Source of the DNA: Lentibacillus sp. Marseille-P4043
GTDB lineage: Bacteria > Bacillota > Bacilli > Bacillales > Amphibacillaceae
Direction: 5' to 3'
NCBI RefSeq assembly: GCF_900258515.1
Contig: NZ_LT984884.1
Coordinates: forward strand, 886,245-950,244
Length of the DNA stretch: 64,000 nucleotides
The notes beneath the pieces are model-generated. The model had not been told where the DNA came from. It was given only the letters and a program-made list of their open reading frames with translations, and did not search any database. A program made the translations under genes and the position numbers. Numbering within the stretch: the stretch's first letter is position 1; the number at the start of each line of letters is the position of its first letter. This document shows positions 3,648 to 52,994 of the stretch, piece after piece.

Positions 3648-3659
3648 GAACAATCAACA

Positions 3660-4883: not shown

Positions 4884-4889
4884 GTTTAT

Positions 4890-28602: not shown

Positions 28603-28619
28603 GAAAAGGAATGATAGAA

Positions 28620-29099
28620 ATGAAAATAACAATCGTTGCGGTTGGGAAACTGAAGGAAAAGTACTTAAAGCAAGGAATCCAGGAATATTTAAAAAGGCTC
28701 ACTGCCTATGCAAAAGTAGATATTATCGAGGTTGCCGATGAAAAAGCTCCGGAAAACATGAGCGAAGCAGAAATGGTAGAAGTGAAGCGGAAGGAAGGCG
28801 ACCGAATTCTTGGTGCGATTTCACCGGATACATATGTGATCACACTAGAAATCAACGGCAAAATGCTGACGTCAGAACAAATGGCGGCCAAGATGGATGA
28901 ACTTGCTACATATGGGAAAAGCAAAATTGCGTTTGTGATTGGCGGGTCACTTGGGATTAGTGAGGCTGTACAAAAGCGTAGTGATTTGGCGTTATCGTTT
29001 TCTAAGATGACATTCCCGCATCAGGTAATGCGGCTGGTGTTGTTGGAACAGGTTTATCGGGCCTTTCGGATTATTAGGGGGGAACCTTACCATAAATAA
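28620..29099 (+). CDS. rlmH: 23S rRNA pseudouridine-1915 N3-methyltransferase RlmH
   Basis: RlmH methylates pseudouridine 1915 in 23S rRNA using SAM and is a small SPOUT enzyme. The 159-residue protein has the normal length; it contains the SAM-binding knot [10 protein letters not shown] and the C-terminal RGEPYHK. The start at 28620 ([15 protein letters not shown]) is preferred to ATG 28611 on family alignment and aaagga spacing. In staphylococci the 3' end of this gene (orfX) is the SCC integration site. The same 3' end here is followed at once by a decayed serine recombinase. Confidence 0.97.
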
Positions 29100-29100
29100 G
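29081..29100 (+). other. Putative SCC-like attachment site at rlmH 3' end
   Basis: ggaaccttaccataaataag covers the last codons of rlmH (G-E-P-Y-H-K-stop). It aligns with tgaaccgtaccataagtaa at 32712-32730 (16 of 19) and agaaccgtatcataaatag at 33736-33754 (15 of 19). The staphylococcal SCC core TATCATAAAT is matched exactly by the third copy and in 8 of 10 positions here (TACCATAAAT gives 9). Inference from position and similarity. Confidence 0.6.
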
Positions 29101-29107
29101 GGTAAAA

Positions 29108-29140
29108 AATTAAGGGAAGATAAGGCTTCCCTGAAGTTTT
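29108..29140 (+). terminator. Possible weak terminator after rlmH
   Basis: gggaag and cttccc form a small stem with a modest T stretch (gaagtttt). It is inside the antisense recombinase frame. Low support. Confidence 0.35.
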
Positions 29141-30013
29141 CATCCCTTGAAAATGGTTCTTCCATGAAGGTTCTATCGAGTGGTGCAATGCAGTTTATTT
29201 CAGATATTTTGTTAATTAAAATACTAGAGCTACCTTGTAAGGCTTCAATAGTGAAGTCAAACATCAGGTTGATGCATTTGATTTGGCGTCCTTCGTTATG
29301 GGATGCCTTTTCCTTGGTAATTTGGATATCCTTTATAAAAAGTGCAAGAAGCTCCTTCTTTTCCGTGGCGTCTGCTTGATCCAGTAGAACATCAATGTTT
29401 TTAAGCAGTTGTATGAGTGCTTCTGCATCAATTGGGTCTTTACTAATGGAATTGATCTCTTTTTCTACATTTTCCATTTGATTTTCTATTGTTGCAAGAT
29501 GATTTTTCTGTTCTAGCATTTTCTTGCTATAAATATCTCTTAATTCAGGATCATCCATTAGCAATGTAACTAGATTGTCTATCTGCTTTTCGATTTTCCT
29601 TTTGTTCTTTAACAGCCGTTTCTTTTCATCCAATAATGGTGATTCAGCATTTAATCGATCAGCGTTCATTTTATCAACTAATTTATCAATAAAATAGGGA
29701 TGTGTTACAACACGTTTTAATTCATCAATAACAAATTTTTCAGCCTTATCGGCATTAATCGTATGTGCTTGGCAAGCGGTTCTACCTTTGTTTTTATACT
29801 GACCACATTGATAAAGTCTATATTGTTTGCCGTTTTTACCTCTAGACTTTGCAGCAGTCATTACATATCCCATTCAGGACAACGAAGTAAGCGACCTAAG
29901 AAGTATGGTTTTGCTGATAGTGCTGGACGAAAAGAACGTGTTTTCAATTTTTGCTGCACTTGATCCCAAAGCTCCACTTCAATTATGGGAGTATGTATAC
30001 CTTCTTAAGATTC

Positions 30014-30104
30014 GGTGCCTGTCACCACCCGCAATTTGTCGAATCATTCGACATTATTCGGGGCGTGACAGGCACTTTTTATTATTCGGTGCCCGTCACC
30101 ACCC
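30014..30104. repeat. Family D repeat: ggtgcctgtcaccaccc hairpins
   Basis: ggtgcctgtcaccaccc (30014-30030) pairs with gggcgtgacaggcac (30060-30074), and a second copy ggtgcccgtcaccaccc lies at 30088-30104. It replaces the missing 5' part of the recombinase. Similar gtgccaggtac arms occur at 49184-49244. The remaining gap to 30232 holds nothing else I recognise. Confidence 0.75.
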
Positions 30105-30232
30105 GCAATCACTCCTTTAACTTTTATAACAGTATTGGTATTAAAGGAGGGGAAAAATACCTTTATATTTGCCACGTTTTAAATCTAATTCCGGTATTAT
30201 CATTTTTTTTATTAGACCGTTCATAATTTCTC

Positions 30233-31009
30233 CTACACATTTAAAAGTACCTTTTCAGTGATCTTTTCCAACTGTTTAGCCTTTTGTGGATTAAATGTTT
30301 TCATGGATAAATCGACAGGTATTGAAAGTCTATAAGCTGAGAAAATCTGCGATCTTGATTCCTTTAAGACGTCAACAATACTATTTACGATTTCATCAAC
30401 CTCATGTCCTACTAGACGGTGAACTACTTTCAAGAATATTCTCATTAATGGATTCGCAAAGACTGATCTAGCCCCAGAAGTTCTTACAGCCATTGGATTA
30501 TATAAAATATAACGAATGCCCTTTCTTTTGAATCCTGCACCCAGCAAGTCATTTAGCCGGTTAGCATTGGCGTTAGCTTTCACGCTGTTAAACTTGCGAC
30601 GATATTCTAAATCGTCAAAGTTGACGGGGCTGTTGATGCCTGGGGTAGCAACATTTAAAATAAAGGAGTCATCATTGAATGCTAACCGATTTGAAAGGAT
30701 ATACCGACTTAAATACTGCAATGCAAAGGTGAATTCCAAACCTTCTTTTGTGATTAAAGTGTTTTTGCGAGCTGTTTGTAGGACAGCGCAAAGAATCAAT
30801 CCATCGATTGAGCCATAGGTCCTTTGGATGTTCTCGATGATACGGTAGTTTTCCGAAGCAAGACTCAAATCTGCTTGAAGATAAATAGCATTATGTAGAT
30901 CACCTTTATTTCTGCTTACGATAATGACCCTATTCCCGGCTGCTAAATAATACTTCGCCAGTCCTTTGCCAATGCCACTAGTTCCTCCTGTAATTAACAA
31001 TGTTTTCAT
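30233..31009 (-). CDS. SDR-family protein with altered catalytic residues
   Basis: The 258-residue protein has the SDR NAD(P) loop TGGTSGIGKG (residues 8-17) and the overall length of the family. At the active-site position, where most SDRs have YxxxK, it has FNSVK (F140, K144), and the usual catalytic Ser is replaced in NVATPG. The protein is therefore doubtful as a classical dehydrogenase and may have a different role. It is divergent from the HxlR-type regulator, with operator-like sequences between them, so they probably form a regulated pair. It sits in the accessory segment after rlmH. Confidence 0.8.
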   Translation of the reverse strand: MKTLLITGGTSGIGKGLAKYYLAAGNRVIIVSRNKGDLHNAIYLQADLSLASENYRIIENIQRTYGSIDGLILCAVLQTARKNTLITKEGLEFTFALQYLSRYILSNRLAFNDDSFILNVATPGINSPVNFDDLEYRRKFNSVKANANANRLNDLLGAGFKRKGIRYILYNPMAVRTSGARSVFANPLMRIFLKVVHRLVGHEVDEIVNSIVDVLKESRSQIFSAYRLSIPVDLSMKTFNPQKAKQLEKITEKVLLNV

Positions 31010-31047
31010 GGTTGAATCCCCCCTGTTTTCGGTTTATTATTTGTACT

Positions 31048-31064
31048 AGTACGATTATCGTACT
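31048..31064. promoter_or_regulatory. Palindromic operator between SDR and HxlR genes
   Basis: AGTACGATTATCGTACT is a perfect 17-bp palindrome. Further half-sites AAGTACGATA (about 31080) and AAGTACGG (about 31103) lie between it and the regulator. A probable binding site for the HxlR protein, controlling both divergent genes. Inference. Confidence 0.65.
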
Positions 31065-31138
31065 GAGTGATATTCATTTCAAGTACGATAAAATAACTTA
31101 CCAAGTACGGTGGACAATACCGAGGAGTGGAAAAAACA

Positions 31139-31501
31139 ATGGACATACCGAATTTACAAGAATTAATGGAACAAAATTTAAATAATCAAGAAAACTGCAA
31201 TCCTAATTTTAACCCACTTGATCCCGTTTTCAATGTCCTGCAGGGCAAGTGGAAGAATCAAGTACTATTTGAAATCATCGCTTTAAAAAATGCTCGTTTT
31301 GGTCAGCTTACACGAGCTATCCCAAAAATCACCAATACTATGCTATCCACGACGTTACGAGAACTTGAAAAGGACGGTTTAATTACTAGGAAACAATATA
31401 ATGAAATCCCTCCACGTGTTGAATATACAATTACAGAAAAAGGGAAAGATTTATTCCCCGTTTACTATGAAATGTATAAGTGGGGTATCAAGTATCAATA
31501 G
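31139..31501 (+). CDS. HxlR-family transcriptional regulator
   Basis: The 120-residue protein has the DUF24/HxlR winged helix: VLQGKWKNQVLFEI, RFGQLTRAIPKITNTMLSTTLRELEKDGLI and the wing PPRVEYTITEKGKDL. It has an N-terminal Cys (NCNPNF) that could act in redox or electrophile sensing, as in YodB/CatR, but that is inference. ATG 31139 is preferred to GTG 31127, which lies inside the gaggag ribosome site. It is divergent from the SDR gene with a palindrome between them. Confidence 0.88.
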   Translation: MDIPNLQELMEQNLNNQENCNPNFNPLDPVFNVLQGKWKNQVLFEIIALKNARFGQLTRAIPKITNTMLSTTLRELEKDGLITRKQYNEIPPRVEYTITEKGKDLFPVYYEMYKWGIKYQ

Positions 31502-31774
31502 GAATAAGAATTGAACCTGTTTTTGCAGAAAATTTTAAGGGAAAAATATATTTTTTTATTTAAGTTTTTTTATTTACTTTATAGGTAATTGTGTGGGTTC
31601 CTGACACCCGAACTTAAGTATATATGTTATAAATAACAATTAGTAAAGGATATGTTGACAAATAGTTTCGCATGCTTTTTTATAGAAGGAATTTACCTGA
31701 AATATGTTGAATTACTCTTTAGATAAAACAAATGGGGTTATTATTCAATAAAAAGGAGAAAGATGGTATAGGAA
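31502..31774. other. Gene-free AT-rich gap
   Basis: Between the HxlR gene and the MntA region there are T-rich runs and a 'gggttcctgacaccc' stretch that recalls the family D repeat. I see no gene. A promoter for mntA should lie near its right end but no clear hexamers stand out. Confidence 0.5.
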
Positions 31775-31851
31775 TTGAGTATAGAACAAGAATTATACGG
31801 AGCAATAAAAATATAATTGAGGAAAGATATCCAAATTTTAAAATAGTGTAA
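31775..31851 (+). pseudogene. Short frameshifted frame upstream of mntA
   Basis: With one inserted base the stretch reads LSIEQELYGAIKNIIEERYPNFKIV, a plausible coding string after ggaattg, ending TAA 31849-31851. As given, the frame stops after 13 codons. Only the amphipathic composition suggests past coding; low confidence. Confidence 0.25.
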
Positions 31852-31870
31852 AGGGGAAAGTGGTGAACTC

Positions 31871-32281
31871 ATGCTATCTGAACAAATCAGACAGAAACTT
31901 GTGGAAACCTTAACTGAAAAAGTAAATCCAGCGTTTATTTTATTATTCGGCTCTTATGCAAAAGAAAGAGCTAGAGGAGACAGTGATGTCGATTTGGCTT
32001 ATTATAAGGAGCAGCCGCTATCTTCATACGAACTTTTTATACTTACAGGGGAGCTAGCACAAATTTGCGGGAAAGATGTTGATTTAGTAAATATACGAGA
32101 AATTGATACGGTATTTGCAATGCAAATATTTTCAACGGGAAAACTAATCGAATGTCGTGACGAGAATGAATTCGTGAAACAACGAATAAAGGCTTATCAT
32201 ATGTACGCGGAGTTAAATGAGCAGCGGGCGGAAGTATTACGAAGTATTCAAGAAAGAGGAAGTGTTTTTGGGGATGAATGA
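31871..32281 (+). CDS. mntA: MntA-type nucleotidyltransferase antitoxin
   Basis: Minimal nucleotidyltransferase of the type VII toxin-antitoxin pair: it neutralises HepT by adding AMP units to a tyrosine. The 136-residue protein has the signature GSX10DXD at residues 27-41 (GSYAKERARGDSDVD), and a later acidic residue (DVDLVN) in the family position. It overlaps hepT by 8 nt, so the pair is co-translated. It lies in the accessory segment after rlmH, as is common for mobile cargo. Confidence 0.9.
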   Translation: MLSEQIRQKLVETLTEKVNPAFILLFGSYAKERARGDSDVDLAYYKEQPLSSYELFILTGELAQICGKDVDLVNIREIDTVFAMQIFSTGKLIECRDENEFVKQRIKAYHMYAELNEQRAEVLRSIQERGSVFGDE

Positions 32282-32684
32282 AGTAGTTTTGAATAAAGTG
32301 ACGACCATTGAACGTTGTATTCATCGAATTCATGAAGTATATGAAAATAACCCTAAGAATTTAAAGGATTTCACAAAGCAGGATAGTATCATTCTAAATA
32401 TCCAGCGTGCCTGTGAAGCAAGTATTGATTTAGCCATGCATATTGTCAGTGAAAAAAAGTTAGGTGTTCCTAAAGCAAGTCGTGAAGCCTTTAAGCTTTT
32501 ACGAGAAGCAAATATAATAGATGAATCATTAGCCAAAACTTTAATGAATATGGTTGGTTTTCGTAATATCGCTGTACATGATTATCAATCCATTGAATTG
32601 GATATCTTAGAAGCCATCTTAGAAAAGCACATTGATGATTTTAAAGCTTATGCAAAGTCGGTTATTTTAAATCTATCGGAATAA
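32274..32684 (+). CDS. hepT: HepT-type HEPN toxin
   Basis: HEPN RNase toxin partner of MntA. The 136-residue protein has the RX4HXY motif: R97, H102 and Y104 (RNIAVHDY), where the tyrosine is the AMPylation target in studied HepT proteins. The start ATG 32274 gives MNEVVLNK; a longer frame from 32217 overlaps more of mntA and is not needed. A hairpin at 32689-32736 closes the operon. The intact motif suggests an active toxin. Confidence 0.9.
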   Translation: MNEVVLNKVTTIERCIHRIHEVYENNPKNLKDFTKQDSIILNIQRACEASIDLAMHIVSEKKLGVPKASREAFKLLREANIIDESLAKTLMNMVGFRNIAVHDYQSIELDILEAILEKHIDDFKAYAKSVILNLSE

Positions 32685-32688
32685 TAAA

Positions 32689-32738
32689 AACCTCATTTAG
32701 ATTAGGTACGGTGAACCGTACCATAAGTAAATGAGGTT
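32689..32738 (+). other. rlmH-end-like site 2, also a hairpin terminator
   Basis: aacctcatttag (32689-32700) and gaaccgtaccataag...taaatgaggtt form a long stem with loop tgaa and a T run, so it can terminate hepT transcription. Its right arm matches the rlmH 3' end at 29081 in 16 of 19 bases. A copy with the same left motif and the same 24-nt spacing lies at 33713-33756. It may be the outer end of an SCC-like element. Confidence 0.6.
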
Positions 32739-32813
32739 TTTAATGACACATACCTAATTACATTTACATTTTACTTTCTAACTTTGGTATAACCTGACTT
32801 TTGCAGCTAAAAT

Positions 32814-32871
32814 GAGGAAAAAGCAGCCTTAAACCCTTATACTTACTAGGTTTTTTGCTGCTTTTATTTGT
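32814..32871. terminator. Hairpin beside the IS remnant
   Basis: aaaagcagc and gctgctttt flank an aaaccc...ggtttt inner stem. It is a probable transcription terminator for the minus-strand transposase remnant, or a shared element. Moderate support. Confidence 0.5.
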
Positions 32872-32890
32872 CAAAAAGTTGTAGTGTAAA

Positions 32891-33129
32891 TCAACCTATT
32901 TTCGTTGCTCCTAAAACTTTTTTAATTTCTTTTAATGACAAGCATTTTTGTCCTAAATCTACATCCAATTCCTTATTGATATCAAAAAGAACGTCATCAA
33001 ATAAATCGAATAAATAATAATTTCCTTGTATGTGGCTACACGAAGCTTTCCCTAGGCTGTCAAGTATTTTCGTAATTGAATACTTCCCTTTCAACCGTCG
33101 CTCTAATATTCTTGCGATGACAATATATT
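32891..33129 (-). pseudogene. C-terminal fragment of an IS1634/IS4-type transposase
   Basis: Reading on the minus strand: YIVIARILERRLKGKYSITK, then SCSHIQGNYYLFDLFDDVL and LSLKEIKKVLGATK, a pattern I know from the C-terminal end of IS1634-type transposases. A stop interrupts it at about 33129 and only about 80 residues remain, so the IS has decayed. The start of the fragment has no ribosome site. Confidence 0.6.
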
Positions 33130-33150
33130 AAGACTAATAAAACTGCTACA

Positions 33151-33516
33151 TTGGGTAAAGCTGCGGAAGTGGCACAAATTACACCTCAGTCCGCATCAAA
33201 TGTGTTGAACAAGCTTTGTAAAAAGAAAAATATTCTTCAGAGAGAAATCAGAAATAAATATATGTTCACTCATCGAGTGTATGAAAGTTTGAATGATAAT
33301 ATTGCGTATACTAAAGATAAAGATTTTGACGAAATACAAGCTAAAACAATGATTATTGAATACCTGAATAAGAATAGTTCGATTACTCGTTCTGATGTAG
33401 AAAGATTATGTGGTTTTTCATCTACAAGTAGTAAGCGTATTTTACAACGTTTAAGGGATAAAGAAATTATTACTTTAGAAGGTAAAGCACGAGCAAGTCA
33501 TTATAGATTAAAGTAA
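33151..33516 (+). pseudogene. Winged-helix protein fragment, N-terminus missing
   Basis: The frame is open from about 33118 (QYIKTNKTATLGKAAEVAQ) with no ribosome site and no Met start; a TTG at 33151 is the only start. It contains two helix-turn-helix-like stretches (LGKAAEVAQITPQSASNVLNKL and ITRSDVERLCGFSSTSSKRI) like the C-terminal end of larger regulators such as those following AlbA/Schlafen-type ATPases. Probably the tail of a gene broken where the IS fragment begins at 33129. Not sure. Confidence 0.4.
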
Positions 33517-33549
33517 TGCATGATATATTGAAATGAAATACGGCAGTCT

Positions 33550-33636
33550 GGCCAATAATTGGACCGATACTACAAGAGGTTGGACTGATTCCGGACCGAT
33601 AATTGGACCGATACTACAGGGGATAGGACTGACTCT
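33550..33636 (+). repeat. Two-unit 43-44-bp tandem repeat
   Basis: Units 33550-33592 and 33593-33636 share ggaccgata...ttggaccgatactacaggggataggactgactctgg-like content, and a third partial unit follows. It lies in a gap that also holds the third rlmH-end-like site and no gene. Composition unlike flanking DNA. Confidence 0.65.
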
Positions 33637-33712
33637 GGACTAAAGTTAGACAGACTGTAGCATAGCCAACCAATTGTATAAAGTATAATGTTGATATTAT
33701 ATCGAGGAGAAT

Positions 33713-33756
33713 AACCTCATTTAGGCACACTGCGCAGAACCGTATCATAAATAGGT
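33713..33756 (+). other. rlmH-end-like site 3 with SCC core TATCATAAAT
   Basis: aacctcatttag (33713-33724) is followed 24 nt later by gaaccgtatcataaatagg, with gcggtt a few bases further on. The core TATCATAAAT is identical to the core of the staphylococcal SCC attachment site, and the layout matches site 2. It is the farthest candidate end of the accessory segment. Beyond it to 34079 I see no gene. Confidence 0.55.
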
Positions 33757-34079
33757 AGCGGTTAGCGGTTTACTTAAAAAACAAGCCAATTTTATTTATT
33801 AAAGTTTTGGATGCCTCTTCCAACAACATATTTAAAAGAACAGAAAATCAGTTAATGCACTTATTTGTATTTCCAAGGCATTGGTATAATGTTGTACAAT
33901 CCAAAACATTATGTCAGTACCTAGGCTAATATTTTTACATTCAATCTTAGTATTATATAAAAACGGTTCTCTGTAAAACATAGTGGTGATTCATCTCATG
34001 CACCTCACCTCCATATTTAACAAAGAACCTTTCTTTGATAGGAATAAGAAGATATATCAACTTATTTCCATGACACAAA

Positions 34080-35558
34080 TTATTTCAAATCAAGTGATTC
34101 CATTGTCCAAGATTGAATCTTATCAACGAGTTCAGGTTTATCAGTTAACTTTTCGCCGTAAGAAGGGATCATTTCTTTTAGCTTTGGTTTCCATACATCA
34201 AGCTGCTCAGGGAAACAATTTTCAATTAAACGAATCATATCTGAAACGGATGTTGAGGCACCTGGAGAACCACCAAGTAATGCGGCTAAGGAACCATCTT
34301 TACAACGTACAACTTCTGTATCGCTAAATTGAATTGTTCCCTTGCCCTTATCTGTATCTTTAATTACTTGTACACGTTGTCCTCCCACTTTTAGTTCCCA
34401 ATCTTCATCTTTCGCATCAGGGAAAAACTCACGCAGTTCTTTCATTCGTTCTTTTTTTGTTAATCTTAATTGTTGGATTAAGTATTGTAATAATGATAAG
34501 TTTTTTGCACCTGCAGCCATCATCGTAATTAGATTATGCGATTTGACTGAGCCAAATAAATCCATATTTGATCCTGTTTTTAGGAATTTAGGTGAAAAAC
34601 CAGCAAACGGTCCGAAAATCAACGTTTGTTTGCCGTTAATTGTTCTTGAGTCCAAGTGTGGAACAACAAGTAGTGGTGCTCCGTCTGGATTTTTACCATA
34701 TACCTTCGCATGATGCTGTTTTATTACCTCAGGATTATTACATTCCAAGTATTGCCCACTAATTGGGAATCCTCCGATATGTTTGCTTTCAGGAATTTGC
34801 GTTTTCTGTAGTAAAGGTAAACTTTTACCACCAGCACCAATAAATACGAACTTCGCTGTGTGTGTTTCAATTACCTCTTCACCTTTTTGAACGGTAACTT
34901 CCCATAAACCGTCTTTCCTGCGCTTGATATCTTTAACATTGTGGTTGTAATTGATATTCACATTTTCTTTTTCTAGGTAATCACACATTGCGCGGGTTAG
35001 TGCCCCGTAGTTGACATCAGTACCATCATCAATTTTTGCCCCTGCAACGGCTTCATTTGTTGATCGATCCTTCATCATAAGTGGGAACCATTCTTTTAGC
35101 ATACTTGGATCATCAGAGTACTCCATTCCGTTAAACAATGGGTGCTTAGACATTGTTTCAAAACGTTTCTTTAAAAAAGCTACATTTTTTTTGCCCTTTA
35201 CAAAACTAATATGCGGTAAACCTGTAATAAAGTTACGTGGCTCACCAATTAACTTTTGATCCACTAGATGAGCCCAGAACTGTCTTGAAAGTTGGAAACG
35301 TTCATTTATCCTAATTGCAGCTTCCATATCAATTGTGCCATCAGGTTGCTCAATTGTATAATTCATCTCACATAAAGCAGCATGTCCTGTTCCTGAATTA
35401 TTCCGTTCGTTAGAGCTTTCTTTACCAGCTTCATCAAGTTGTTCAAATACTGTAATTTTCCATTCTGGTGCTAATTCTTTTAGTAACACTCCTAAGGTAG
35501 CACTCATAATTCCTGTACCAATTAAAATAACATCTGATGTAGATGGCTTGTTATTCAT
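34080..35558 (-). CDS. mqo: Malate:quinone oxidoreductase
   Basis: Membrane-associated FAD enzyme that oxidises malate to oxaloacetate and passes electrons to quinone, an alternative to malate dehydrogenase. The 492-residue protein has the FAD motif [11 protein letters not shown] near the N-terminus, the family stretches [18 protein letters not shown] and [13 protein letters not shown], and a C-terminal GGSPGASTS region. Start 35558 follows gaggatg. Upstream lies a 13-bp palindrome also found ahead of lctP, so expression is probably linked to lactate metabolism. Confidence 0.96.
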
Positions 35559-35705
35559 ATAAATCATCCTCGTATAATAATAATTTGGTAATTCGTTCAA
35601 AGTTTATATTTCTCGTATTGTTAGTGAAGTACCCAACTTAAAATTTGGATTATGGTCGGATAAAGGAACATTTAAGTTCGTTTGTCTTAACATCGTTTAA
35701 AGCAG

Positions 35706-35718
35706 GTCATCAGATGAC
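35706..35718. promoter_or_regulatory. GTCATC-palindrome operator ahead of mqo
   Basis: GTCATCAGATGAC is a perfect 13-bp palindrome with one central base. Its near copy GTCATCTGATGAG lies ahead of lctP at 38280-38292. FadR-type GntR regulators bind such sites, and one is encoded between the two. Inference. Confidence 0.6.
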
Positions 35719-35767
35719 TAGCTTGTTTAGAAAGGCCCTACAGTTTGTAAAGCCAGAACAATCATTT

Positions 35768-36475
35768 TTAATCAATATATTCCGCAATTAAACGGTCAAC
35801 TTCAATCAGATGATCACGCATTGCTTTTTGGGCATTTTCTGGGTTTCTGGATTTAATGGCCTCAAAAATACGCTGATGTTCGTTGAAAAGAGCACCTTTT
35901 CTCTCATCTGAATATAAAATTAGCCGACGTGTTTCACGCATGGACTCAACCATAATATCGGAAACACTCCCCATTAGGTTTATTAGCATTCTATTATGTG
36001 TTGCATTTACTACGCTTAGATGGAATTCAAGGTCTGCTTTTTCACCAAGTTCCCCTTTCCCCTTCGCATCGTACATTTTCTGTAATGCTTTTTCCATCGG
36101 GATTAAATCTTCTTCTCGGTGACTAAGCGCAGCAGCACTTGCTGAACCAACCTCGAGAATTTTCCTTACCTCGGATAACTCTTTGATATCCTCACGCTTT
36201 AACAACAACGCAGTGGTAACAGGGAGTGAAAATTGAGAGGGATCAAACTTGGTAATATATGTTCCTTCCCCTTGTCGCATTTCCACTAAACCAATGGCAC
36301 GTAATCCGCTTAATGCTTCCCGGACCGCCGAACGGCTAACATTGTAGTTTTTTGCTAACTGTTCAACCGAAGACAGCTTATCACCTGGTGAAAGTTCGCC
36401 AGACTTTAACATATCAATCAATGAATCTGAAACTTCTTCATATATTTTTCTTGTCTTTATCGGCTTAACATTCAA
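35768..36475 (-). CDS. FadR-type GntR regulator (LutR/LldR-like)
   Basis: The 235-residue protein has the GntR winged helix (SGELSPGDKLSSVEQLAKNYNVSRSAVREALSGL) and the FCD ligand-binding domain (about 90-225, ending RDHLIEVDRLI). The TTG start at 36475 follows aggaggg. It lies between mqo and lctP on the same strand. In Bacillus the LutR protein of this class represses lactate genes. The pair of GTCATC palindromes makes it the likely repressor of both neighbours, with lactate as probable inducer by analogy. Confidence 0.88.
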   Translation of the reverse strand: MNVKPIKTRKIYEEVSDSLIDMLKSGELSPGDKLSSVEQLAKNYNVSRSAVREALSGLRAIGLVEMRQGEGTYITKFDPSQFSLPVTTALLLKREDIKELSEVRKILEVGSASAAALSHREEDLIPMEKALQKMYDAKGKGELGEKADLEFHLSVVNATHNRMLINLMGSVSDIMVESMRETRRLILYSDERKGALFNEHQRIFEAIKSRNPENAQKAMRDHLIEVDRLIAEYID

Positions 36476-36612
36476 GATATCCCTCCTATCCTACATTCTA
36501 GTTTACCGCACAGGTGCCAAATAAGGAAGAAGGAGCCTAGTCCAGTTTGTATTACAGTACTTTATTGGACTATTTGTTAAGGCTTTCTATTTACTTGGAG
36601 GTCATCTGCATT

Positions 36613-38199
36613 TTAAATAAATTGCATGATTACAAACCCGCCAATACCAGCTAAAATCCCATATAATATTGCTGGTGTTAACGTCTTTCGGATGACATCT
36701 CCCTCTTTACCTGTCAAGCCAACAACTGTTGACGCTGCAACAACATTATGAACACAAATCATATTTCCAGCAGCAGCACCAATAACCTGCAGTGCCAATA
36801 TAATTTGTGGATTCATACCAACTTCATTTGCTACATTAAACTGAATTGGTGAAAATGTCAGTGTTGAGACGGTTGCACTACCGGTAATAAATGCGCCAAG
36901 TTCTCCAAGGAATGGAGCAACAAATAACCAACCGGAACCAAATGTTTCTGCCAATGTCTCGGCAATGTATTGTGGCATACTAACTAAGTCATTCATATTC
37001 AAACCAGAGTTAGAGAACACCTGTACCAGTGCAAGAGTTGAAAACAAGGCAAGGCCAGCGCTCTTAACTTGTCCAAGTGATTCTTTTGAAGCCTTTGTGA
37101 AATTTGAAAATGACTTGCGCTGAATTAATATTGCAAATAGAGCTGCAATGAGTAAAATCGTTCCAGGGGAATATAATACTTCCCACCCAGATGTTATTCC
37201 TTCAATTCCAAGAATATTACTCCATGTCCAATCAACGTGATTAAGGGTAAACGCTTTAATTGGGTCTATGATTCTAGTGATAAGCAGTAACCCTACCACT
37301 ACTAAATACGGTGACCAAGCCTTTATTAACCCCATATTAGATTTATTCTCTGATACTTTAAAATCAGATTGGAGCGCCTCATTCCACGTTGTCTTTGGCA
37401 GAAGGAACCCTTTTCTTGCAGTTAATGTAGCAATAGCAAGTCCTGTTAATGAAGCTAAAATTGAAACAAACTCTTGTCCAAACAATGTTGCATATAAAAG
37501 GGATGACCCTGTATAAGTTATACCAACAAGAAGTGCCCATGGTACCATTGTTAATGTACTGGACAGCCCTTTTTTCTTACCAAAGAATAGAGTCAAAATA
37601 GCAATTAAAATAAGTGGTACAAATGTTCCAGCAAACAAGTCAATCAGTGTAACATTGACACCAATTTCATTGAAAAACGCTAGATTTGCATTAGGAATAT
37701 TACTTAAACCTACTTGAATCGGTGTACCGACTGCACCAAATGATACAGGGGAACTATCAGCGATTAAAGCCAATGTAGCAGCAGCCATTGGGTTAAAACC
37801 GAGTGCTACCATTAAAGGCCCTGTCACAACAGCTGGTGTCCCAAATCCCGCAGCCCCCTCAATCAATGCACCGAATAAGAAAGCAACAATAATAACTTGA
37901 ACACGCATATCGCTTGAAATATTACGAAAACCTTGATTTATCCGATCAACCGCACCGGTATGTCGGAGTGTATTTAGTAAAACAATCGCACCAAATAGAA
38001 TCAATAGAATGGTCAATGCTTTATGTAGCCCTTGAAGAATGGAGGCAATGACAATTGTCCCACCCATTCCCCACACAAAAAATGCAAGGCCAATTACAAT
38101 GAGTGCACTAAAGAGCATTCCTTTAACTGCTGGCATCCTAAAGATAACTAGGAAAATAAATGGTGCAATTATCGCACTTAATGCTGCAAATAATAACAT
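36613..38199 (-). CDS. lctP: L-lactate permease
   Basis: Proton-coupled uptake of lactate (and often glycolate). The 528-residue protein has about 12-14 membrane helices and the family stretches [17 protein letters not shown] and [18 protein letters not shown] start ATG at 38199 follows aaggggg. A cre-like site (38232-38246) and the GTCATC palindrome (38280-38292) are upstream, suggesting CcpA repression and lactate-responsive control. Confidence 0.95.
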
Positions 38200-39011: not shown

Positions 39012-40499
39012 ATGGCAAAGCTAACATTACAACAATTAGAATCACACTTATGGGAATCAGCAAATATTTTAAGGGGGAGCATTGATTCCTCTGATTATAA
39101 AAATTATATATTTGGTTTACTGTTTTTAAAACGTTTGAGTGACGTGTTTATTGAGCATGCGACATACGTGGAAGAAGAAGAAAATGATGATTATGCATGG
39201 TATGACCGTGATGAGCATCAGTTCTTTGTTCCAGAACGGGCTCGGTGGACACATATTCAAATCCAAACACAGGATATCGGTAATACGATTAACAAAGCCT
39301 TTGAAGCACTTGAAGAAGAGAACCCATCTTTAGTTGGTGTTTTGGCTAATATTGATTTTAATGATAAAGATAAATTACCTGATAAATTGTTATTACAATT
39401 GATTCAACATTTTTCTTCGATTGATTTAAGTAATGAGAATCTATCGGAACCCGACATGCTTGGGCGTGCTTACGAATACTTAATTAAGCAGTTCGCGGAT
39501 GATGCTGGAAAAAAGGGTGGCGAATTCTATACACCGACAAAAGTTGTTGAACTGATTGTGAATCTGATTAAACCAGAAGAAGGGATGAGGGTGTGTGATC
39601 CGACTGTCGGTTCAGGTGGTATGCTTGTTCAATCCGTCGATTACATTAAATCACAAGGTGGAGACGCACGTAATTTATCCTTACATGGACAAGAACGAAA
39701 CCTGAACACATGGGCGATTTGTAAGATGAATCTGTTGTTACATGGGTTAAGTGACCACAGAATTGAACGTGGAGATACGATACGTGAGCCGAAGCTATTA
39801 GGTGATGATAAGGAATTGCTTTTATATGACAGGGTAATAGCCAATCCACCTTTTTCACTTAAGAATTGGGGACGTGAAGAAGCTGAAGCGGATGAGTATG
39901 GTCGTTTTCGCTTTGGCATACCACCAAAAAACGCTGGGGACTATGCCTTTGTTCAACATATGGTGTCTACGTTAAACCATGAAGGTAAAGCTGGCGTCGT
40001 CATGCCACATGGTGTGTTATTCCGTGGTGGTGCAGAAGGGAAAATTCGCGAAGGTCTGTTAAAAGATGATTTAGTGGAGGCGATTATTGGGTTGCCATCC
40101 AACCTTTTCTATGGAACAGGTATCCCTGCTTGTATTTTAATCCTGAATCGAAATAAAGTAGAGAACCAAAAAGGGAAAGTGTTTATTTTAGATGGTTCTA
40201 AAGATTATCAAGAAGGCAAGAATCAGAACGTTCTTCGTAGTGAGGATATCGACAAAATTGTTCAGGCTTATGATGCTTGGGAAGACCAGGAGAAATATTG
40301 CCGAGTCGTTGACTTAGAAGAATTAGAAGAGAATGGCTACAACTTAAACATTGCCCGATACATTGATACTACCGAAGAGGAAGAAGAAATTGACGTTCAA
40401 GCGGCATTGAATGATTTGAAGAAGCTAGAGCAAGAACGTGAAGAAATAGAGGATAAGATGTATGGGTATTTGAAGGAGTTGGGATTTAATGAGTTATAA
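39012..40499 (+). CDS. hsdM: Type I restriction system methyltransferase subunit
   Basis: HsdM makes the N6-adenine methyltransferase of a type I R-M complex (M2S for modification, with R2 for cutting). The 495-residue protein has the N-terminal helical domain, the SAM motif DPTVGSGG at D196 and catalytic NPPF at N278. The stop overlaps the hsdS start by 11 nt. The usual hsdM-hsdS-hsdR order with overlaps indicates a single operon. All motifs are intact. Confidence 0.97.
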   Translation: MAKLTLQQLESHLWESANILRGSIDSSDYKNYIFGLLFLKRLSDVFIEHATYVEEEENDDYAWYDRDEHQFFVPERARWTHIQIQTQDIGNTINKAFEALEEENPSLVGVLANIDFNDKDKLPDKLLLQLIQHFSSIDLSNENLSEPDMLGRAYEYLIKQFADDAGKKGGEFYTPTKVVELIVNLIKPEEGMRVCDPTVGSGGMLVQSVDYIKSQGGDARNLSLHGQERNLNTWAICKMNLLLHGLSDHRIERGDTIREPKLLGDDKELLLYDRVIANPPFSLKNWGREEAEADEYGRFRFGIPPKNAGDYAFVQHMVSTLNHEGKAGVVMPHGVLFRGGAEGKIREGLLKDDLVEAIIGLPSNLFYGTGIPACILILNRNKVENQKGKVFILDGSKDYQEGKNQNVLRSEDIDKIVQAYDAWEDQEKYCRVVDLEELEENGYNLNIARYIDTTEEEEEIDVQAALNDLKKLEQEREEIEDKMYGYLKELGFNEL

Positions 40500-41739
40500 G
40501 GATTATCAATTAGATGAAATATTTAATATGAGCAGGAAAAATGTTAAACCCAATGATATCCCAGAGGAACAATTTCTTCATTATAGTATCCCTGCATATG
40601 ATAATGGTGAGAAACCGTTACTTGAAAGAGGAGCTTCGATAAAAAGCAATAAATATTTATTAAAAGAACCATCGATATTAGTATCAAAGTTAAATCCGAG
40701 AATAAATAGAGTATGGAAATTTGATAATGAAGACAAAAATAAGATAAATTCTATCTGTTCTACAGAATTTATGGTATATGAAAGAAAGAGTAGTGATATT
40801 GATTTAGAATATTATTATCAATTTTTTAAATCGAAAATCTTCCAAAGGTATTTACTAAATCTACAATCGGGTTCGACTGGGAGCAGGATGAGGGTATCTC
40901 CTAAGGATACATTATCAATACCTATACCAAAGCCAACTAAAAAGCAACAACAAAAAATCGCAGCAATCCTCTCATCCGTCGATGAAACAATTGAAAAAAC
41001 AGAACAAATCATCGAACAAACTGAGACGGTGAAAAAAGGATTAATGCAACAGTTGTTGACGAAAGGGATTGGACATACAGATTTTAAGTCTTCGCCACTT
41101 GGTGAAATACCAAGAAATTGGGAAGTTTTAAAAGTTAATGAGTTTGCTATTGTAGATTATGGTATATCGGAAGCTGTATCTAATAATACAGACCCTAATA
41201 TAGGTATCCCGATTATTACTGGAGCAAATATAACACTAGAAGGTAATTTGGATTTGACTAAACAAGTATATGTAAAAAAACGTGAACAGGAACGATTTCA
41301 ATTGAATAAAGGTGATTTGCTTTTTAATTGGCGTTCTGGAAGTCAAAAGCACGTTGGAAAAACAGCTATATTTAATTTAGATGATGAGTACACATATGCT
41401 TCTTTTATTTTAAAAATAAGAGTAAACGACGACTGTAATAATAAATTTTATTATCATTTATTGAATTATCTAAAATCAATTCAATATTTTTCAAAAGATA
41501 CTTCAGTCCAAGTAAATTTCAAATTGAATGCGTCGTCATTTCGAGAGCTTTTATTAATGAAGCCCCCACTAGAAGAACAGAAAGAAATTTCTTCAAGAAT
41601 TGATTCAATTAATGATAAAATTAAATTTGAGGAACAAAAAATTAGAATGTTAAATAATATCAAACAAGGCCTTATGCAACAACTTCTAACAGGCAAAGTC
41701 CGTGTACCAATTGATGATAACGAGGGGGTTCCGTCATGA
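40489..41739 (+). CDS. hsdS: Type I restriction specificity subunit
   Basis: HsdS chooses the two halves of the DNA target. The 416-residue protein has two target-recognition domains of about 150 residues, each followed by a conserved helix: the first ends with the repeat TKKQQQKIAAILSSVDETIEKTEQI..VKKGLMQQLLT, the second with KSPPLEEQKEISSRI-like KQGLMQQLLTGKVRV. The repeat in the two helical arms is the normal HsdS layout. It overlaps hsdM and hsdR at its ends. Confidence 0.96.
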   Translation: MSYKDYQLDEIFNMSRKNVKPNDIPEEQFLHYSIPAYDNGEKPLLERGASIKSNKYLLKEPSILVSKLNPRINRVWKFDNEDKNKINSICSTEFMVYERKSSDIDLEYYYQFFKSKIFQRYLLNLQSGSTGSRMRVSPKDTLSIPIPKPTKKQQQKIAAILSSVDETIEKTEQIIEQTETVKKGLMQQLLTKGIGHTDFKSSPLGEIPRNWEVLKVNEFAIVDYGISEAVSNNTDPNIGIPIITGANITLEGNLDLTKQVYVKKREQERFQLNKGDLLFNWRSGSQKHVGKTAIFNLDDEYTYASFILKIRVNDDCNNKFYYHLLNYLKSIQYFSKDTSVQVNFKLNASSFRELLLMKPPLEEQKEISSRIDSINDKIKFEEQKIRMLNNIKQGLMQQLLTGKVRVPIDDNEGVPS

Positions 41740-44681
41740 GCGAAGCACAAGCTTGGAATGAAGAAACGTTAGTGGAAAATCGAATGATGGACCAACTTCA
41801 GAAGCTTGGCTACACGTATGTTCATGGAACGGAACTGGATAAAGAGCGCACATCGCAAACGGAAGTTGTCTTAAAAGGGCGATTGGAAGCATCGATTAAA
41901 CAATTGAATCCATGGATAAATGAAAATAACTTAAATAAAGTGGTACGCAGTGTTACACATATGGAAGCCGCAAGCCTCATGGAAGCAAATCAACATTTTC
42001 ATGGACTGCTCATTAATCAGCTGTCGGTTCAACAAGATGTTGGGAGTGGACGGAAGAACCAGACGGTAAAACTGATTGATTTTGACAATATCAACAATAA
42101 CGACTTCATCATTACCAATCAATTCAGCTATACACATGCTAATGACATCATTCGTCCTGATATTATGCTGTATGTCAATGGTTTGCCATTAGTCGTGATT
42201 GAATGTAAAAGTCCAGCCCTGCCTCCAGATGAACAAATTGGACAAGGAGTGAAACAGTTACGTCGCTATCAACAAGAAAATGAAGCACTTTTTCATTATA
42301 ACCAATTCATGATTTCCACGAGTAATGACCGTGCAAAAGTTGGTACAATGGGGGCCAAAGCACAACATTATAGTACATGGAAAGAACCCTATCCGTTGGC
42401 TGTTCAGGATGTGGGGGAGGCCCCGACAGCCCAGGATATTTTAACGGTAGGAATATTGGAGAAAGAGCGACTGTTTGATATTATCTTAAACTTTATTGTC
42501 TATGAACCAGAAGATGGTCGAGTGATTAAGAAAATGGCTCGTTATCAGCAGTATCGAGCTGTGAATAAAGCTGTAAAACGAATCCTAACAGGTAAACATC
42601 CACAGGCTCGTGGTGGGGTTGTATGGGCGACACAAGGGTCAGGAAAATCATTATCGATGGTATTTTTATCGATGAAACTGCGACGTCTAAAACAGCTAGA
42701 GAATCCTGTCATTGTCGTTGTAACAGACCGCCAAGATTTAGATGCCCAAATAACCGCTACCTTTACACGATGTGGGTTTCCAAATCCAAAACAAGCTGAA
42801 TCTGTAGATGAACTCAAGTCATTATTACAACAAGGTCCAGGCTCTACCGTAATGACCTTAGTACAGAAATTCCAAGCCGAAGAAGATGAGGATTACCCCC
42901 TACTGACTGATTCAGAAAATGTCATTGTGTTGGTTGATGAGTCGCACCGTTCTCAGTACAGTTCGTTAGCGATGAATATGCGTATAGGTTTACCAAATGC
43001 AACGTATATTGGTTTTACAGGAACACCAATCGACAAAGAAGACAAAAGTACCGTACGAACCTTTGGAACCTATATTGATAAATATCCAATTGAAAAAGCA
43101 GTGGAAGATGGGGCAACGGTACCAATCTTTTATGAAGCAAGATTAATTGATTTACACGTTCAAGGCGAGACCATTGATACCTTATTTGACCGTTTCTTCC
43201 GCGATTATTCCGATGAAGATAAAGAACGGATTAAGCAGAAATACGTGACAGAAGAGGCGTTGACTGCATCTCCCAAGCGTTTAAAAACAGTTGTGCTTGA
43301 TATGATTGACCATTATGAACAGCATATCCAGCCAAACGGCTTTAAAGCACAAATTGTTTCGGTATCACGTCAAGCAGCCGTAGAATATAAAAAATTAATG
43401 GATGAATTAAGTGATTATGAATCAGCTGTCATTATTTCTAACAGTCATAATGATTCAGAAGAAATGAAACAGTATGGCCTGTCACGAGCAGAAGAAAAGG
43501 AATTTATCCAACGTTTTAAGAAACCATTAGAGGAGGACCCGCTTGCCTTTTTAATCGTCTGCGATAAGCTCTTAACAGGCTTTGATGCACCGATTGAACA
43601 GGTGATGTATTTGGACAAGCCCTTGAAGGAACATAATCTTCTTCAGGCCATCGCCAGAACGAATCGAACCTATGATAAAAAGTCACACGGATTAATTGTG
43701 GATTATTATGGTGTCTCCCGCTTCCTAGAAGAAGCACTCGGTATCTTTCATGAAGAGGATATCAAAGGGGCCATGCACCATGTGGATGAGGAAGTTCCAC
43801 GATTACAATCACGTCATCGCAGGGTGATGCAATTCTTTGATTATATACGAAAAGATGATTTAGAAGCTTGTTTGAAAGTGCTGGAACCAGAAGATGTGCG
43901 CAATACGTTCGATACAGCCTTCAAGAAGTTTTCTGAAAGCATGGATATGGTGATGCCAAGTCCAAAAGCGAAAGCCTATGTTGATGATTTGAAATGGTTA
44001 GGTAAGATTCGAAAGTTAGCGAAGTCCCGTTACCATGTCGATGATGGCACGTTGGATATATCCGATTGTGGTGGTAAGGTACGGGAATTGATTGAAGAAT
44101 ATGTTTATGCATCGACACCTGAAATTTTATTTGAACCTGTAAATATTTTAACCAATAAATTTGATGAAAAGTTAGATGAATTGAAGACTCCTGAAGCAAA
44201 AGCAGCGGAAATGGAACATGCCATTAAACATGAAATCCGAATCAAACTGGAAGAGAACCCAGTGAAATACACATCCATAAAGGAACGATTGGAGCAGTTA
44301 ATCGAACAACGGAAAGCACGACAATTAACGATTGAAGAACTACTGGAAGAATACCAAGCCATGAGAGAAGAAATGATGGATATGGAACAGGAGAGTCAAT
44401 CGTTCGGTCTAAAAGATGCCAAGCAGTTGCCGTTTTATCAGTTGTTGGAACAGCAAATTCCAGTTGAAATGGAGCAAGAAAGCTTAAAAGATTTGACCGA
44501 AATTATTACGTATATTATTCAAGATAATGCTGTGATTGATTGGACAGAAAAAGAAGACGTGAAGCGTGAAATGAGAAAAAGACTAAAGAAACAACTTCGA
44601 GCTAGCTCTGTTCCTAATAAACAAGTCGAAAGTGTAGCAAGACAATTGATGGAACTGGGTGAGGTTCATTATAAGCCTTAA
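41736..44681 (+). CDS. hsdR: Type I restriction endonuclease subunit
   Basis: HsdR translocates and cuts unmodified DNA. The 981-residue protein has the N-terminal nuclease with the core RPDIML...VIECKS, a helicase/translocase with Walker A ATQGSGKS and DEAD-like VDESHRSQ, and a long C-terminal helical region. It begins with an ATGA overlap with hsdS. A terminator follows. No missing motif is seen, so the system should be able to restrict. Confidence 0.96.
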   Translation: MSEAQAWNEETLVENRMMDQLQKLGYTYVHGTELDKERTSQTEVVLKGRLEASIKQLNPWINENNLNKVVRSVTHMEAASLMEANQHFHGLLINQLSVQQDVGSGRKNQTVKLIDFDNINNNDFIITNQFSYTHANDIIRPDIMLYVNGLPLVVIECKSPALPPDEQIGQGVKQLRRYQQENEALFHYNQFMISTSNDRAKVGTMGAKAQHYSTWKEPYPLAVQDVGEAPTAQDILTVGILEKERLFDIILNFIVYEPEDGRVIKKMARYQQYRAVNKAVKRILTGKHPQARGGVVWATQGSGKSLSMVFLSMKLRRLKQLENPVIVVVTDRQDLDAQITATFTRCGFPNPKQAESVDELKSLLQQGPGSTVMTLVQKFQAEEDEDYPLLTDSENVIVLVDESHRSQYSSLAMNMRIGLPNATYIGFTGTPIDKEDKSTVRTFGTYIDKYPIEKAVEDGATVPIFYEARLIDLHVQGETIDTLFDRFFRDYSDEDKERIKQKYVTEEALTASPKRLKTVVLDMIDHYEQHIQPNGFKAQIVSVSRQAAVEYKKLMDELSDYESAVIISNSHNDSEEMKQYGLSRAEEKEFIQRFKKPLEEDPLAFLIVCDKLLTGFDAPIEQVMYLDKPLKEHNLLQAIARTNRTYDKKSHGLIVDYYGVSRFLEEALGIFHEEDIKGAMHHVDEEVPRLQSRHRRVMQFFDYIRKDDLEACLKVLEPEDVRNTFDTAFKKFSESMDMVMPSPKAKAYVDDLKWLGKIRKLAKSRYHVDDGTLDISDCGGKVRELIEEYVYASTPEILFEPVNILTNKFDEKLDELKTPEAKAAEMEHAIKHEIRIKLEENPVKYTSIKERLEQLIEQRKARQLTIEELLEEYQAMREEMMDMEQESQSFGLKDAKQLPFYQLLEQQIPVEMEQESLKDLTEIITYIIQDNAVIDWTEKEDVKREMRKRLKKQLRASSVPNKQVESVARQLMELGEVHYKP

Positions 44682-44752: not shown

Positions 44753-45023
44753 ATGGGTAAAAAGAAAAGGACAAGCTGTCGTGAAGAAATGTTACAGGTG
44801 GTACAGCAACTTGTGAAAGCAAAAGGAAAAAATGAATTTTCAATCCAAGAGGTGCTAGATGAGATGGGAAGGGCTGGAACCACTTATAAGGATTCCACTA
44901 TCCGCACCCATCTGACAAGTAAATGTTGTGTCGAGACCAAACAACACCATCAAACCCTATGATGATTACAAACGTATCGGGCATGGTCTGTATGCTTTGG
45001 TGCATTCACCCGATGCTATGTAA
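44753..45023 (+). pseudogene. Frameshifted small R-M-associated gene
   Basis: The frame starts MGKKKRTSCREEMLQVVQQLV and continues with FSIQEVLDEMGRAGTTYKDST and IRTHLTSKCCV, then shifts near 44930 by one base into NNTIKPYDDYKRIGHGLYAL, ending TAA 45021-45023. The pieces read as one small winged-helix-like protein (about 90 residues) of a kind I recall beside restriction genes. The single-base shift probably inactivates it. Its 3' end overlaps the end of the convergent metallopeptidase gene by 18 nt. Confidence 0.6.
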
Positions 45024-45734
45024 TTCGATACCATGTACACGTAACCATTCTTTTGCTTCTTTATAATGAGGAAGAGTCGTTCTAACTATCCGCCAAAATT
45101 TATCATTATGCTCAGGAACAATTAGGTGAGCTAACTCATGCACGATAATATAATCAATCACTCGAACAGGTGCCATCACGATTCGCCAATTTAGATAAAT
45201 ATCACCATTTGGAGTGCATGTTCCCCAACGTTTATGTTGTGTTTTTAATTGTAGAGACCGTGGTTCAACACCTAGCATGGATTGATAATCACTTGCTCGT
45301 TCAATGATTTTTTTATGTCCGTGTTCACGATACCAATGAATGAGTTTTTGTTCGAGATGATCCTGTATTTTGTCCTGAGGCCACGAACGAGGAACGGTAG
45401 CGATGAAACGACCTTGTTTGAACTGAAACGAAGCTTTAGGAATGGCTTCTTTGTGTACTTTCAGTCGATAATGACGACCTAAGTAGGGAAGTTTTTCCCC
45501 GCTTACGAATTCTTTTTGCTGGACAGTAGTCGTAACTTCATCAAGTTGTCGGAGCTTCTTTGTAATCCATGGAGCTTTTTGCTTAATAATTTGAGAGATT
45601 TTAGCATCATCAAGGTTATCTGGTATAAATACTTCAACACCATTGACAATGTTGACAGAGATTTTAACATCTTTTCGGGCTTGTTTGTAATGGCAGTAAT
45701 ATATGGTGGTATTTCCGTACTGAATTTGTGGCAT
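45006..45734 (-). CDS. YgjP-family zinc metallopeptidase
   Basis: The 242-residue protein is of the YgjP/DUF45 family (M48-like zinc proteins), with HELAHLIVPEHNDKFW: the HExxH motif with a further His. The N-terminal part, PQIQYGNTTIYYCHYKQARKDVKISV, is family-typical. These genes often sit beside type I R-M genes, where their role is not settled. Start 45734 follows gaaagaggg on the minus strand; the 6 extra codons of the longer frame are not needed. Confidence 0.88.
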   Translation of the reverse strand: MPQIQYGNTTIYYCHYKQARKDVKISVNIVNGVEVFIPDNLDDAKISQIIKQKAPWITKKLRQLDEVTTTVQQKEFVSGEKLPYLGRHYRLKVHKEAIPKASFQFKQGRFIATVPRSWPQDKIQDHLEQKLIHWYREHGHKKIIERASDYQSMLGVEPRSLQLKTQHKRWGTCTPNGDIYLNWRIVMAPVRVIDYIIVHELAHLIVPEHNDKFWRIVRTTLPHYKEAKEWLRVHGIELHSIG

Positions 45735-45898
45735 TTTGATACCCTCTTTCAATTACATATTTTACATTTTGGTATGAATAAAGGCAACTAAATAGAAGAT
45801 TGATGCAGTGAGTGTTACTTGCCTATATCCAGTGACTTATTATTTGTGTGACTTCATGCTACAATAATAATATAGTGGAAGTGGGAAGGGGTATAGCA

Positions 45899-49707: not shown

Positions 49708-49721
49708 TCGTTTTACATTCA

Positions 49722-49752
49722 AGACAGATTGGAACCTGTCTTTTTTTGTGGG
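49722..49752 (+). terminator. Terminator of the DUF956 gene
   Basis: aagacag and ctgtctt form a stem with loop attggaac and seven T. Confidence 0.75.
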
Positions 49753-51115: not shown

Positions 51116-51151
51116 TCCTAATCACTAGACAAAAAAGGAGGTATAATAATC

Positions 51152-51955: not shown

Positions 51956-51973
51956 AAGAAGGAGGATATGAAG

Positions 51974-52885: not shown

Positions 52886-52909
52886 TAATTAATGATTAAA
52901 TATACAAAT

Positions 52910-52966: not shown

Positions 52967-52994
52967 ATTAAAGTCATTCATTAAGGAGGCTGCT

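Follow-up and report, generated by a model that had tools for sequence, protein, structure and literature searches.

A probable composite array of SCC-like cassettes behind rlmH in Lentibacillus, with relatives whose recombinase gene crosses its own attachment site

What lies behind rlmH in Lentibacillus sp. Marseille-P4043? The stretch analysed here, hereafter the window, comprises 64,000 nucleotides of the forward strand of contig NZ_LT984884.1 (positions 886,245 to 950,244; assembly GCF_900258515.1), and in it rlmH occupies 28611..29099 on the + strand (Pfam SPOUT_MTase, E 4.6e-60; a single match in the genome). The last codons of this target gene form a putative attachment (att) site, and the segment from about 29.1 to 49.24 kb is very probably a composite, partly decayed array of cassettes that resemble the staphylococcal cassette chromosome (SCC) and use a dual-coding att core. 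Copy 1 of the att sequence, GGGGAACCTTACCATAAATAA (29079..29099, + strand), encodes EPYHK and the stop codon of rlmH on the + strand, and LFMVRF of a remnant of the large serine recombinase CcrB on the − strand. Copy 2 (32710-32730) is embedded in an inverted repeat with 28-nucleotide arms (32685..32742), where a class-1 distal end meets a class-1 proximal end (the classes are described below); copy 3 (33734-33754, within the junction 33710..33770 on the + strand) joins a class-1 distal end to the class-4 proximal end, TAGGTAGCGG.

Copies 2 and 3 are identical to copy 1 at 18/21 and 16/21 bases, respectively. A family-derived pattern of the rlmH end, GARCCNTAYCAYAARTR, has exact matches in the 3.93-Mb genome at these three copies only, all on the + strand, in one orientation and within 4.7 kb; one mismatch admits a single additional match, and a backward control pattern gives 3 matches at up to one mismatch. 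This genome-wide search with its control rules out chance occurrence of the motif. The three rlmH-end copies described in an earlier note on this DNA are real, with the refined positions given above, and the possibility raised there, that the motif is no more frequent than expected by chance, does not hold, since the only exact matches in the genome lie behind rlmH. Read in the rlmH frame, all three copies encode EPYHK and a stop codon, and copies 1 and 2 differ by three synonymous changes and nothing else, which is what would be expected if the copies had arrived as the rlmH ends of other hosts. The window shows two features by which SCC elements are recognised: insertion into the final codons of rlmH, with the rlmH end directly repeated, and terminal inverted repeats beside the att cores (the 28-nucleotide arms of copy 2, with class-matched arms in relatives). 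The att copies also match the local rlmH end, as the earlier note had suggested for sites adapted to it.

Abutting rlmH on the − strand (28992..29873) is the ccrB remnant, an open reading frame (ORF) of 293 codons, 259 of them before att, whose frame crosses att copy 1 and extends 108 bp into rlmH. It corresponds to the C-terminal part of CcrB (NCBIfam CcrB, E 4.6e-19, profile positions 323-498 of 542), the catalytic half being missing, and scores 68.5 bits with CcrB, 49.2 with CcrC and 23.7 with CcrA; the serine recombinase remnant noticed earlier is confirmed as CcrB-type. For comparison we used 159 genomes of the host family, 154 with an rlmH match, and took, alongside the window, rlmH plus 2.3 to 39 kb of downstream DNA from 58 of these 154, selected by kinship or by a CcrB match near rlmH (G-numbers denote family genomes; G001 and G002 belong to the window's own genus). 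CcrB-like matches at 1e-30 occur in 78 of the 159. The remnant is 80-86% identical to intact ccrB genes found at the same position, convergent with rlmH, in G028, G138, G107 and G013, and the rlmH-proximal end of a class-2 cassette that adjoins copy 1 (TAAGGGTAAAAAATTAAGGGAAG; 29097..29125, + strand) is very similar to the ends behind rlmH in these four genomes. The NCBIfam equivalog cut-offs are 700 bits for CcrA and 900 bits for CcrB and CcrC. The CcrB cut-off is exceeded in none of the 159 family genomes (best score 431 bits). Judged by these cut-offs, the window lacks the SCC hallmark of encoding CcrA, CcrB or CcrC, and the recombinases are CcrB homologues outside the staphylococcal equivalog.

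Where does the insertion end? G001 lacks a CcrB match and any further att site in the 19 kb after rlmH, and its DNA at +95..4961 after rlmH aligns by blastn over 4.9 kb, at 84%, with the window at 49241..54042 (+ strand), which marks the latter as native chromosome. G002 carries a 9.26-kb cassette with a distal att at +9260, after which its flank is 87% identical to the window from 49245. The native flank near 49,241 therefore leaves about 20.1 kb between rlmH and native DNA, not 4.7 kb, and the unit of 29081-33756 proposed in the earlier note is not supported: copy 3 is a junction between cassettes, and 33756 was rejected as the far end because native sequence resumes near 49,241. Likewise, TAGGTAGCGG after copy 3 was rejected as a native empty flank, being the proximal end of cassettes that have their own distal arm (GCTACC) in G130, G133 and also G178. 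These same three, among the 58 relatives, are strains in which rlmH is joined to the sequence found after 33756, an arrangement the note had proposed as a check; each has its own distal att and so is not an empty site. Empty rlmH ends in related strains do exist, in G001 as against G002 and in G121 as against G130. In the latter pair, of a different genus from the window, rlmH of G121 is joined directly to DNA that in G130 comes after a 14.0-kb class-4 cassette (94.4% over 2,262 columns, the alignment starting at the boundary). Empty and occupied sites, the mark of excision or integration as a unit, are thus found among the relatives, and for the window only by comparison with G001.

The relatives also show how such cassettes are organised. 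A slightly relaxed att pattern, with up to one mismatch allowed, is matched downstream of rlmH at 58 sites in the rlmH orientation and at 2 in reverse, over 1,432,176 bases from the 58 relatives and the window. The sequence directly after rlmH sorts into classes, and the distal site usually bears the inverted repeat of the same class: the proximal and distal ends are TAAATGAGGTTTT and AAAACCTCATTTA in class 1, TAAGGGTAAAA and TTTTACCCTA in class 2, TAGAGGCAAAA and TTTTTGCCTCTTA in class 3, and TAGGTAGCGG and GCTACC in class 4. In class 1, ccrB, where found, is interior to the cassette and on the rlmH strand; in classes 2-4, where present, it sits at the rlmH edge and is convergent with rlmH. 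The window is a mosaic of these classes, passing from class 2 at copy 1 through the two class-1 ends of copy 2, which also occur at rlmH in G109, G177, G117 and G075, to the class-1/class-4 junction of copy 3. Between copies 2 and 3 is a 1.0-kb mini-cassette (32731..33735) that runs from a class-1 proximal to a class-1 distal end without a recombinase. Its architecture is that of a 1.34-kb mini-cassette present in G117 (L076/L144, about 20.4-21.7 kb after rlmH) and in G139 (L095/L135, about 28.9-30.2 kb after rlmH), which belong to different genera; the two copies are 99.2% identical, with the identity starting and stopping at att, and carry between tandem att sites a DJ-1/PfpI-like and an HxlR-like gene, named by reading of the translations, but the window unit holds only gene fragments. 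The fragments in this segment, which was checked for the insertion sequence debris of the earlier note, have partial matches at other places in other genomes. Other mini-cassettes of 1.3-2.0 kb, carrying a RhuM-like gene (named by reading of the translation alone), lie after rlmH at 19.0-20.4 kb in G117, 34.6-35.9 kb in G138 and 26.8-28.9 kb in G139.

What distinguishes the edge recombinases is that the gene runs across its own att site. Of the 159 family genomes, 32 have a CcrB match next to rlmH and convergent with it. In 31 of them, as well as in the window remnant, the ccrB frame continues without a stop across att and closes in antisense rlmH. In the exception, G067, a stop interrupts the frame 23 codons ahead of att, beyond which it continues as in the others. 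Since the 32 edge regions had been selected for an open frame of 250 codons or more, a count of 32/32 would be circular; the independent count is 31/32. In the 27 non-edge regions, the same frame has at most 60 open codons before att (a long open frame in 0/27), and the two other frames never exceed 64 open codons in any region. The att core codons of rlmH and ccrB are exact reverse complements, specifying EPYHK of RlmH and LFMVRF of CcrB. Codons −60 to −13 of ccrB have a ratio of nonsynonymous to synonymous substitution rates (dN/dS) of 0.21 both in class 2 (7 sequences) and in class 3 (17 sequences), and over the last 12 codons synonymous differences drop from about 0.62 to 0.23-0.25, with dN/dS of 0.71 in class 2 and 0.34 in class 3. 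This drop is expected because protein and att share the same DNA. We regard the anatomy of the ccrB-att overlap as well supported.

The CcrB tail in the integrated state is antisense rlmH, 7-83 residues long. In models of the excised joint, the frame instead meets a stop 9 codons after the boundary in class 3 (11/11) and class 4 (5/5) and 13 codons after it in class 2 (5/5); in class 1, where ccr is interior, a stop within 13 codons occurs in 0/8, and class 5 is mixed, with G002, also an interior ccr, again giving 9 codons. The 21 rows of classes 2-4 are not independent within a class, and they include G067, G133 and G178, which lack an intact edge ccrB; omitted from them are G022 (11), G084 (18) and G176 (11), in which a second rlmH copy provides the first site downstream, and the window itself (21, mixed classes). 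What looks like a natural exchange of tails is seen in P0045 and P0046, which are 99.8% identical to P0030 over 562 residues and bear unrelated tails directly after the att-encoded SLMIRF. AlphaFold2 gives residues 519-578 of P0001, an intact class-2 CcrB, a predicted local distance difference test (pLDDT) score below 50; this low-confidence tail suits a passive appendage as well as a degradation or contact signal.

The arrangement is widespread. A CcrB alignment found 169 relatives in a set of named genomes, and among the best 80 of these, from Oceanobacillus, Virgibacillus, Gracilibacillus, Lysinibacillus, Priestia, Paenibacillus and others, 64 have a convergent rlmH within 600 bp of ccrB, 2 have it 3.7-4.0 kb away, and 14 have no rlmH in the stretch. 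At the 64 adjacent loci, the ORF ends past the rlmH boundary in 56 and does not cross it in 8; the common frame is used in 53, not 56, given that L211, L215 and L220 extend beyond the boundary in another frame. A profile of antisense rlmH made from the 27 non-edge regions (G067 among them) detects such a tail in 95 of the best 120 of 1,907 protein homologues and in 0/120 reversed sequences. On a tree of 72 recombinases (P0004 added, the short L154 dropped, and L156, L160, L168, L169, L173, L211, L219 and L226 left out because they were broken, incomplete or unusually long), 5 changes suffice for the edge label, whereas shuffled labels need 16.2, and because of this difference the edge arrangement is clustered and apparently old.

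A separate observation, 4.2-5.0 kb after rlmH, concerns the edge elements L098 (G022), L116 (G084) and L112 (G176), of a CcrB subgroup with the tail LPLKDVRF. These alter the host rlmH end, with ATC TTT after EPY or the corresponding codons, and behind them comes a second copy of rlmH whose PYHK end is normal, so that the target gene has apparently been replaced by an element-borne copy.

We propose that Ccr-type large serine recombination, acting at the att core within the final rlmH codons, once brought each cassette in or could release it, and we infer that the Ccr proteins carry out this exchange. A circle would integrate at the rlmH end, leaving RlmH intact because the att core encodes the same last residues, and could later be excised. 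Repeated integration at rlmH would stack cassettes, pushing older ones outward, and deletions would then erode the array as in the window. Outward from rlmH, the order there would be a class-2 end whose ccrB is broken, a class-1 cassette's distal end together with MntA-HepT, the 1.0-kb class-1 mini-cassette, and a class-4 proximal end followed by metabolic and defence genes with the distal att lost. In intact class 2-4 relatives, excision and integration would swap the C-terminal codons of the recombinase. It is very improbable that the 4.7-kb block is instead one SCC-like element ending at copies 1 and 3: both copies are good att sites in the same orientation, but copy 3 runs into a class-4 cassette end, the native flank lies at 49.24 kb, and G001 and G002 contradict it. 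Still less credible is a prophage or conjugative element that used rlmH through an unrelated integrase, the CcrB remnant being a coincidence. The window indeed has no intact Ccr and the defence genes of the island are common to many island kinds, but the remnant agrees with the intact ccrB of relatives in both position and reading frame, and the scans of window proteins named no phage or conjugation gene.

What the overlap does, if anything, is a different matter. It may well be mere compactness, a disordered tail tolerating any last residues so that their exchange has no effect; we hold this to be somewhat probable, as the end of P0001 is predicted with low confidence, the integrated tails vary in length without visible constraint, and natural tails can be wholly different on nearly identical proteins. 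Against compactness stand the constant position of the modelled excised stop within each of classes 2-4 (16/16 in classes 3 and 4 together), which class 1 does not share, and the keeping of the frame through att across many genera. Alternatively, tail exchange could act as a regulatory switch if CcrB encoded by the integrated copy differed in stability or in direction of recombination from that encoded by the circle. Such a switch would fit the finding that only the modelled excised form has a short tail of constant length, and a study of mycobacteriophages provides a precedent for a switch through an att within a gene (PMC9262239), but the tail is predicted to be disordered; we consider a switch unlikely, and compactness the stronger rival because of the predicted disorder. 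It is equally doubtful that these widespread rlmH cassettes have a self-reporting recombinase, in which the rewritten tail tells the enzyme, by stability or direction, whether its cassette sits in chromosome or circle.

Several points weigh against the array as we read it. The 58 relatives were selected partly for CcrB near rlmH, and the intact recombinases near rlmH in relatives score only about 296-431 bits against the NCBIfam CcrB cut-off of 900. The window has no intact recombinase left, and no excision was observed. In G001, about 95 bp immediately after rlmH have no aligned counterpart in the window, and a search of the window from 33.8 to 49.4 kb for a degenerate distal att found only one site, with 3 mismatches, and none preserved at 49.24 kb. 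Finally, mqo, which with a GntR regulator and a lactate permease occupies 34083..38199 (− strand) inside the inserted segment, is also found behind rlmH in G001, G008, G020, G025, G174 and G178; its status as cargo is uncertain for this reason, and part of 33.8-38.2 kb may be rearranged native content.

In staphylococci, SCC cassettes carry methicillin resistance, and their ccr genes are interior to the element. SCC, including composite and pseudo-SCC forms, shares with the window the rlmH 3' end, a CcrB-type large serine recombinase, direct repeats with terminal inverted repeats, and tandem composites; it differs in that the window has no intact recombinase, the relatives are far below the CcrB equivalog cut-off, and ccrB in class 2-4 relatives is at the very edge and crosses att. 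Cassette chromosomes outside staphylococci have been published. The Enterococcus cassette chromosome (ECC) is an SCC-like element at rlmH with the core TATCATAA, described together with an ECC remnant bearing both att sites in a recipient strain (PMC6222049); by its description it is set apart by genus and recombinases, and a ccr-att overlap was not found in the accessible part of that report. Likewise, islands with large serine recombinases and Pol-SSB pairs are known in Bacillus, Paenibacillus, Paraliobacillus and others, most of them targeting rlmH, with rlmH-end repeats, tandem composites, empty sites and restriction-modification genes (PMC10061031); the accessible main text is about primases, uses the word 'overlap' 0 times and yielded nothing on a recombinase-att overlap. 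The window is therefore a decayed array of an already published kind. The earlier note's inference of an SCC-type strategy outside staphylococci stands, on the att sites, the Ccr-type remnant, the inverted repeats and the empty sites, but it is not new (PMC6222049, PMC10061031).

The overlap has partial precedents. In integration-dependent immunity of mycobacteriophages, the attachment site is within the repressor gene and integration alters the product (PMC9262239), and archaeal suicidal integrases have it within the gene of a tyrosine integrase (PMC8371274). Common to these and to the edge cassettes is an att inside a coding gene, with a product that changes on integration; unlike the repressor and the tyrosine integrase, the serine recombinase keeps its conserved part and would swap only its last residues. 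We found no report of ccr crossing att in the literature searched, which largely lay outside subscription papers, and a search there for attP overlapping a serine integrase gene gave no result, its listing including the tyrosine-integrase and repressor precedents; the accessible part of a paper on the gin element of Bacillus cereus has nothing on a recombinase-att overlap (PMC5595907). No serine recombinase with a C-terminus altered through integration of its own element was met in that literature.

These observations carry the cassette-chromosome principle, mostly familiar from methicillin-resistance cassettes, over to Bacillaceae and Paenibacillaceae. The population there is large and apparently old; it includes tandem arrays and also very small cassettes, of which one or more is nearly identical in two genera. 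They also explain the odd C-terminal tails of database 'recombinase family proteins' as antisense rlmH-like sequence in most of the best 120 homologues. A ccrB that crosses its own att offers a concrete and testable idea of how such elements might sense their own state, which is a question for serine recombinases; were the tail switch true, a dual-coding att that also specifies the last residues of RlmH would contain a self-reporting recombinase switch.

The remaining contents of the island can be described in order. Just past the broken end of the ccrB remnant are REP-like repeats, GTGCCTGTCAC (30001..30109); REP-like palindromes here and at 49180-49240 lie near two break points, the broken ccrB and the island end, and were possibly involved in deletions. 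A short-chain dehydrogenase gene (30233..31009, − strand; Pfam adh_short, E 5.8e-12) and an HxlR-type regulator gene (31127..31501, + strand; Pfam HxlR, E 1.7e-29) precede the toxin-antitoxin pair of the earlier note, now confirmed as type VII: the antitoxin MntA (31871..32281, + strand; NCBIfam 111.8 bits, cut-off 60) and the toxin HepT (32217..32684, + strand; NCBIfam 170.4 bits, cut-off 60). Beyond the mqo group is a type I restriction-modification system, hsdM-hsdS-hsdR (39012..44681, + strand), whose hsdM and hsdR are 90 and 93% identical to genes in a complete 17.7-kb class-2 cassette of G005. A YgjP-like metallopeptidase follows (45006..45752, − strand), a relative of which accompanies hsd genes in cassettes of G005, G020, G022, G072 and G133, and then more genes of defence-like type, AbiD/Abi_2 (45848-46879, + strand) and a PDC-S18 candidate (47025-47942, − strand). 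At the worn far edge is an RmrA-like ORF (48302-49348, − strand), apparently a defence peptidase without its N-terminal part, the best model being matched only from position 100 and another from 54; because of this, and of the missing recognisable distal att, the island end near 49.24 kb looks eroded. General scans of the window proteins named no helicase or primase core genes; in the class-1 cassette of G177, a P4-family primase adjoins ccrB. Outside the island, a small AAA/SMC-like ATPase gene (27797-28555), weakly similar to several defence ATPases, lies directly upstream of rlmH, and a low-complexity SGMGARVSSRGAR-like repeat (19702-20109), open in several frames, lies upstream of a permease-like gene.

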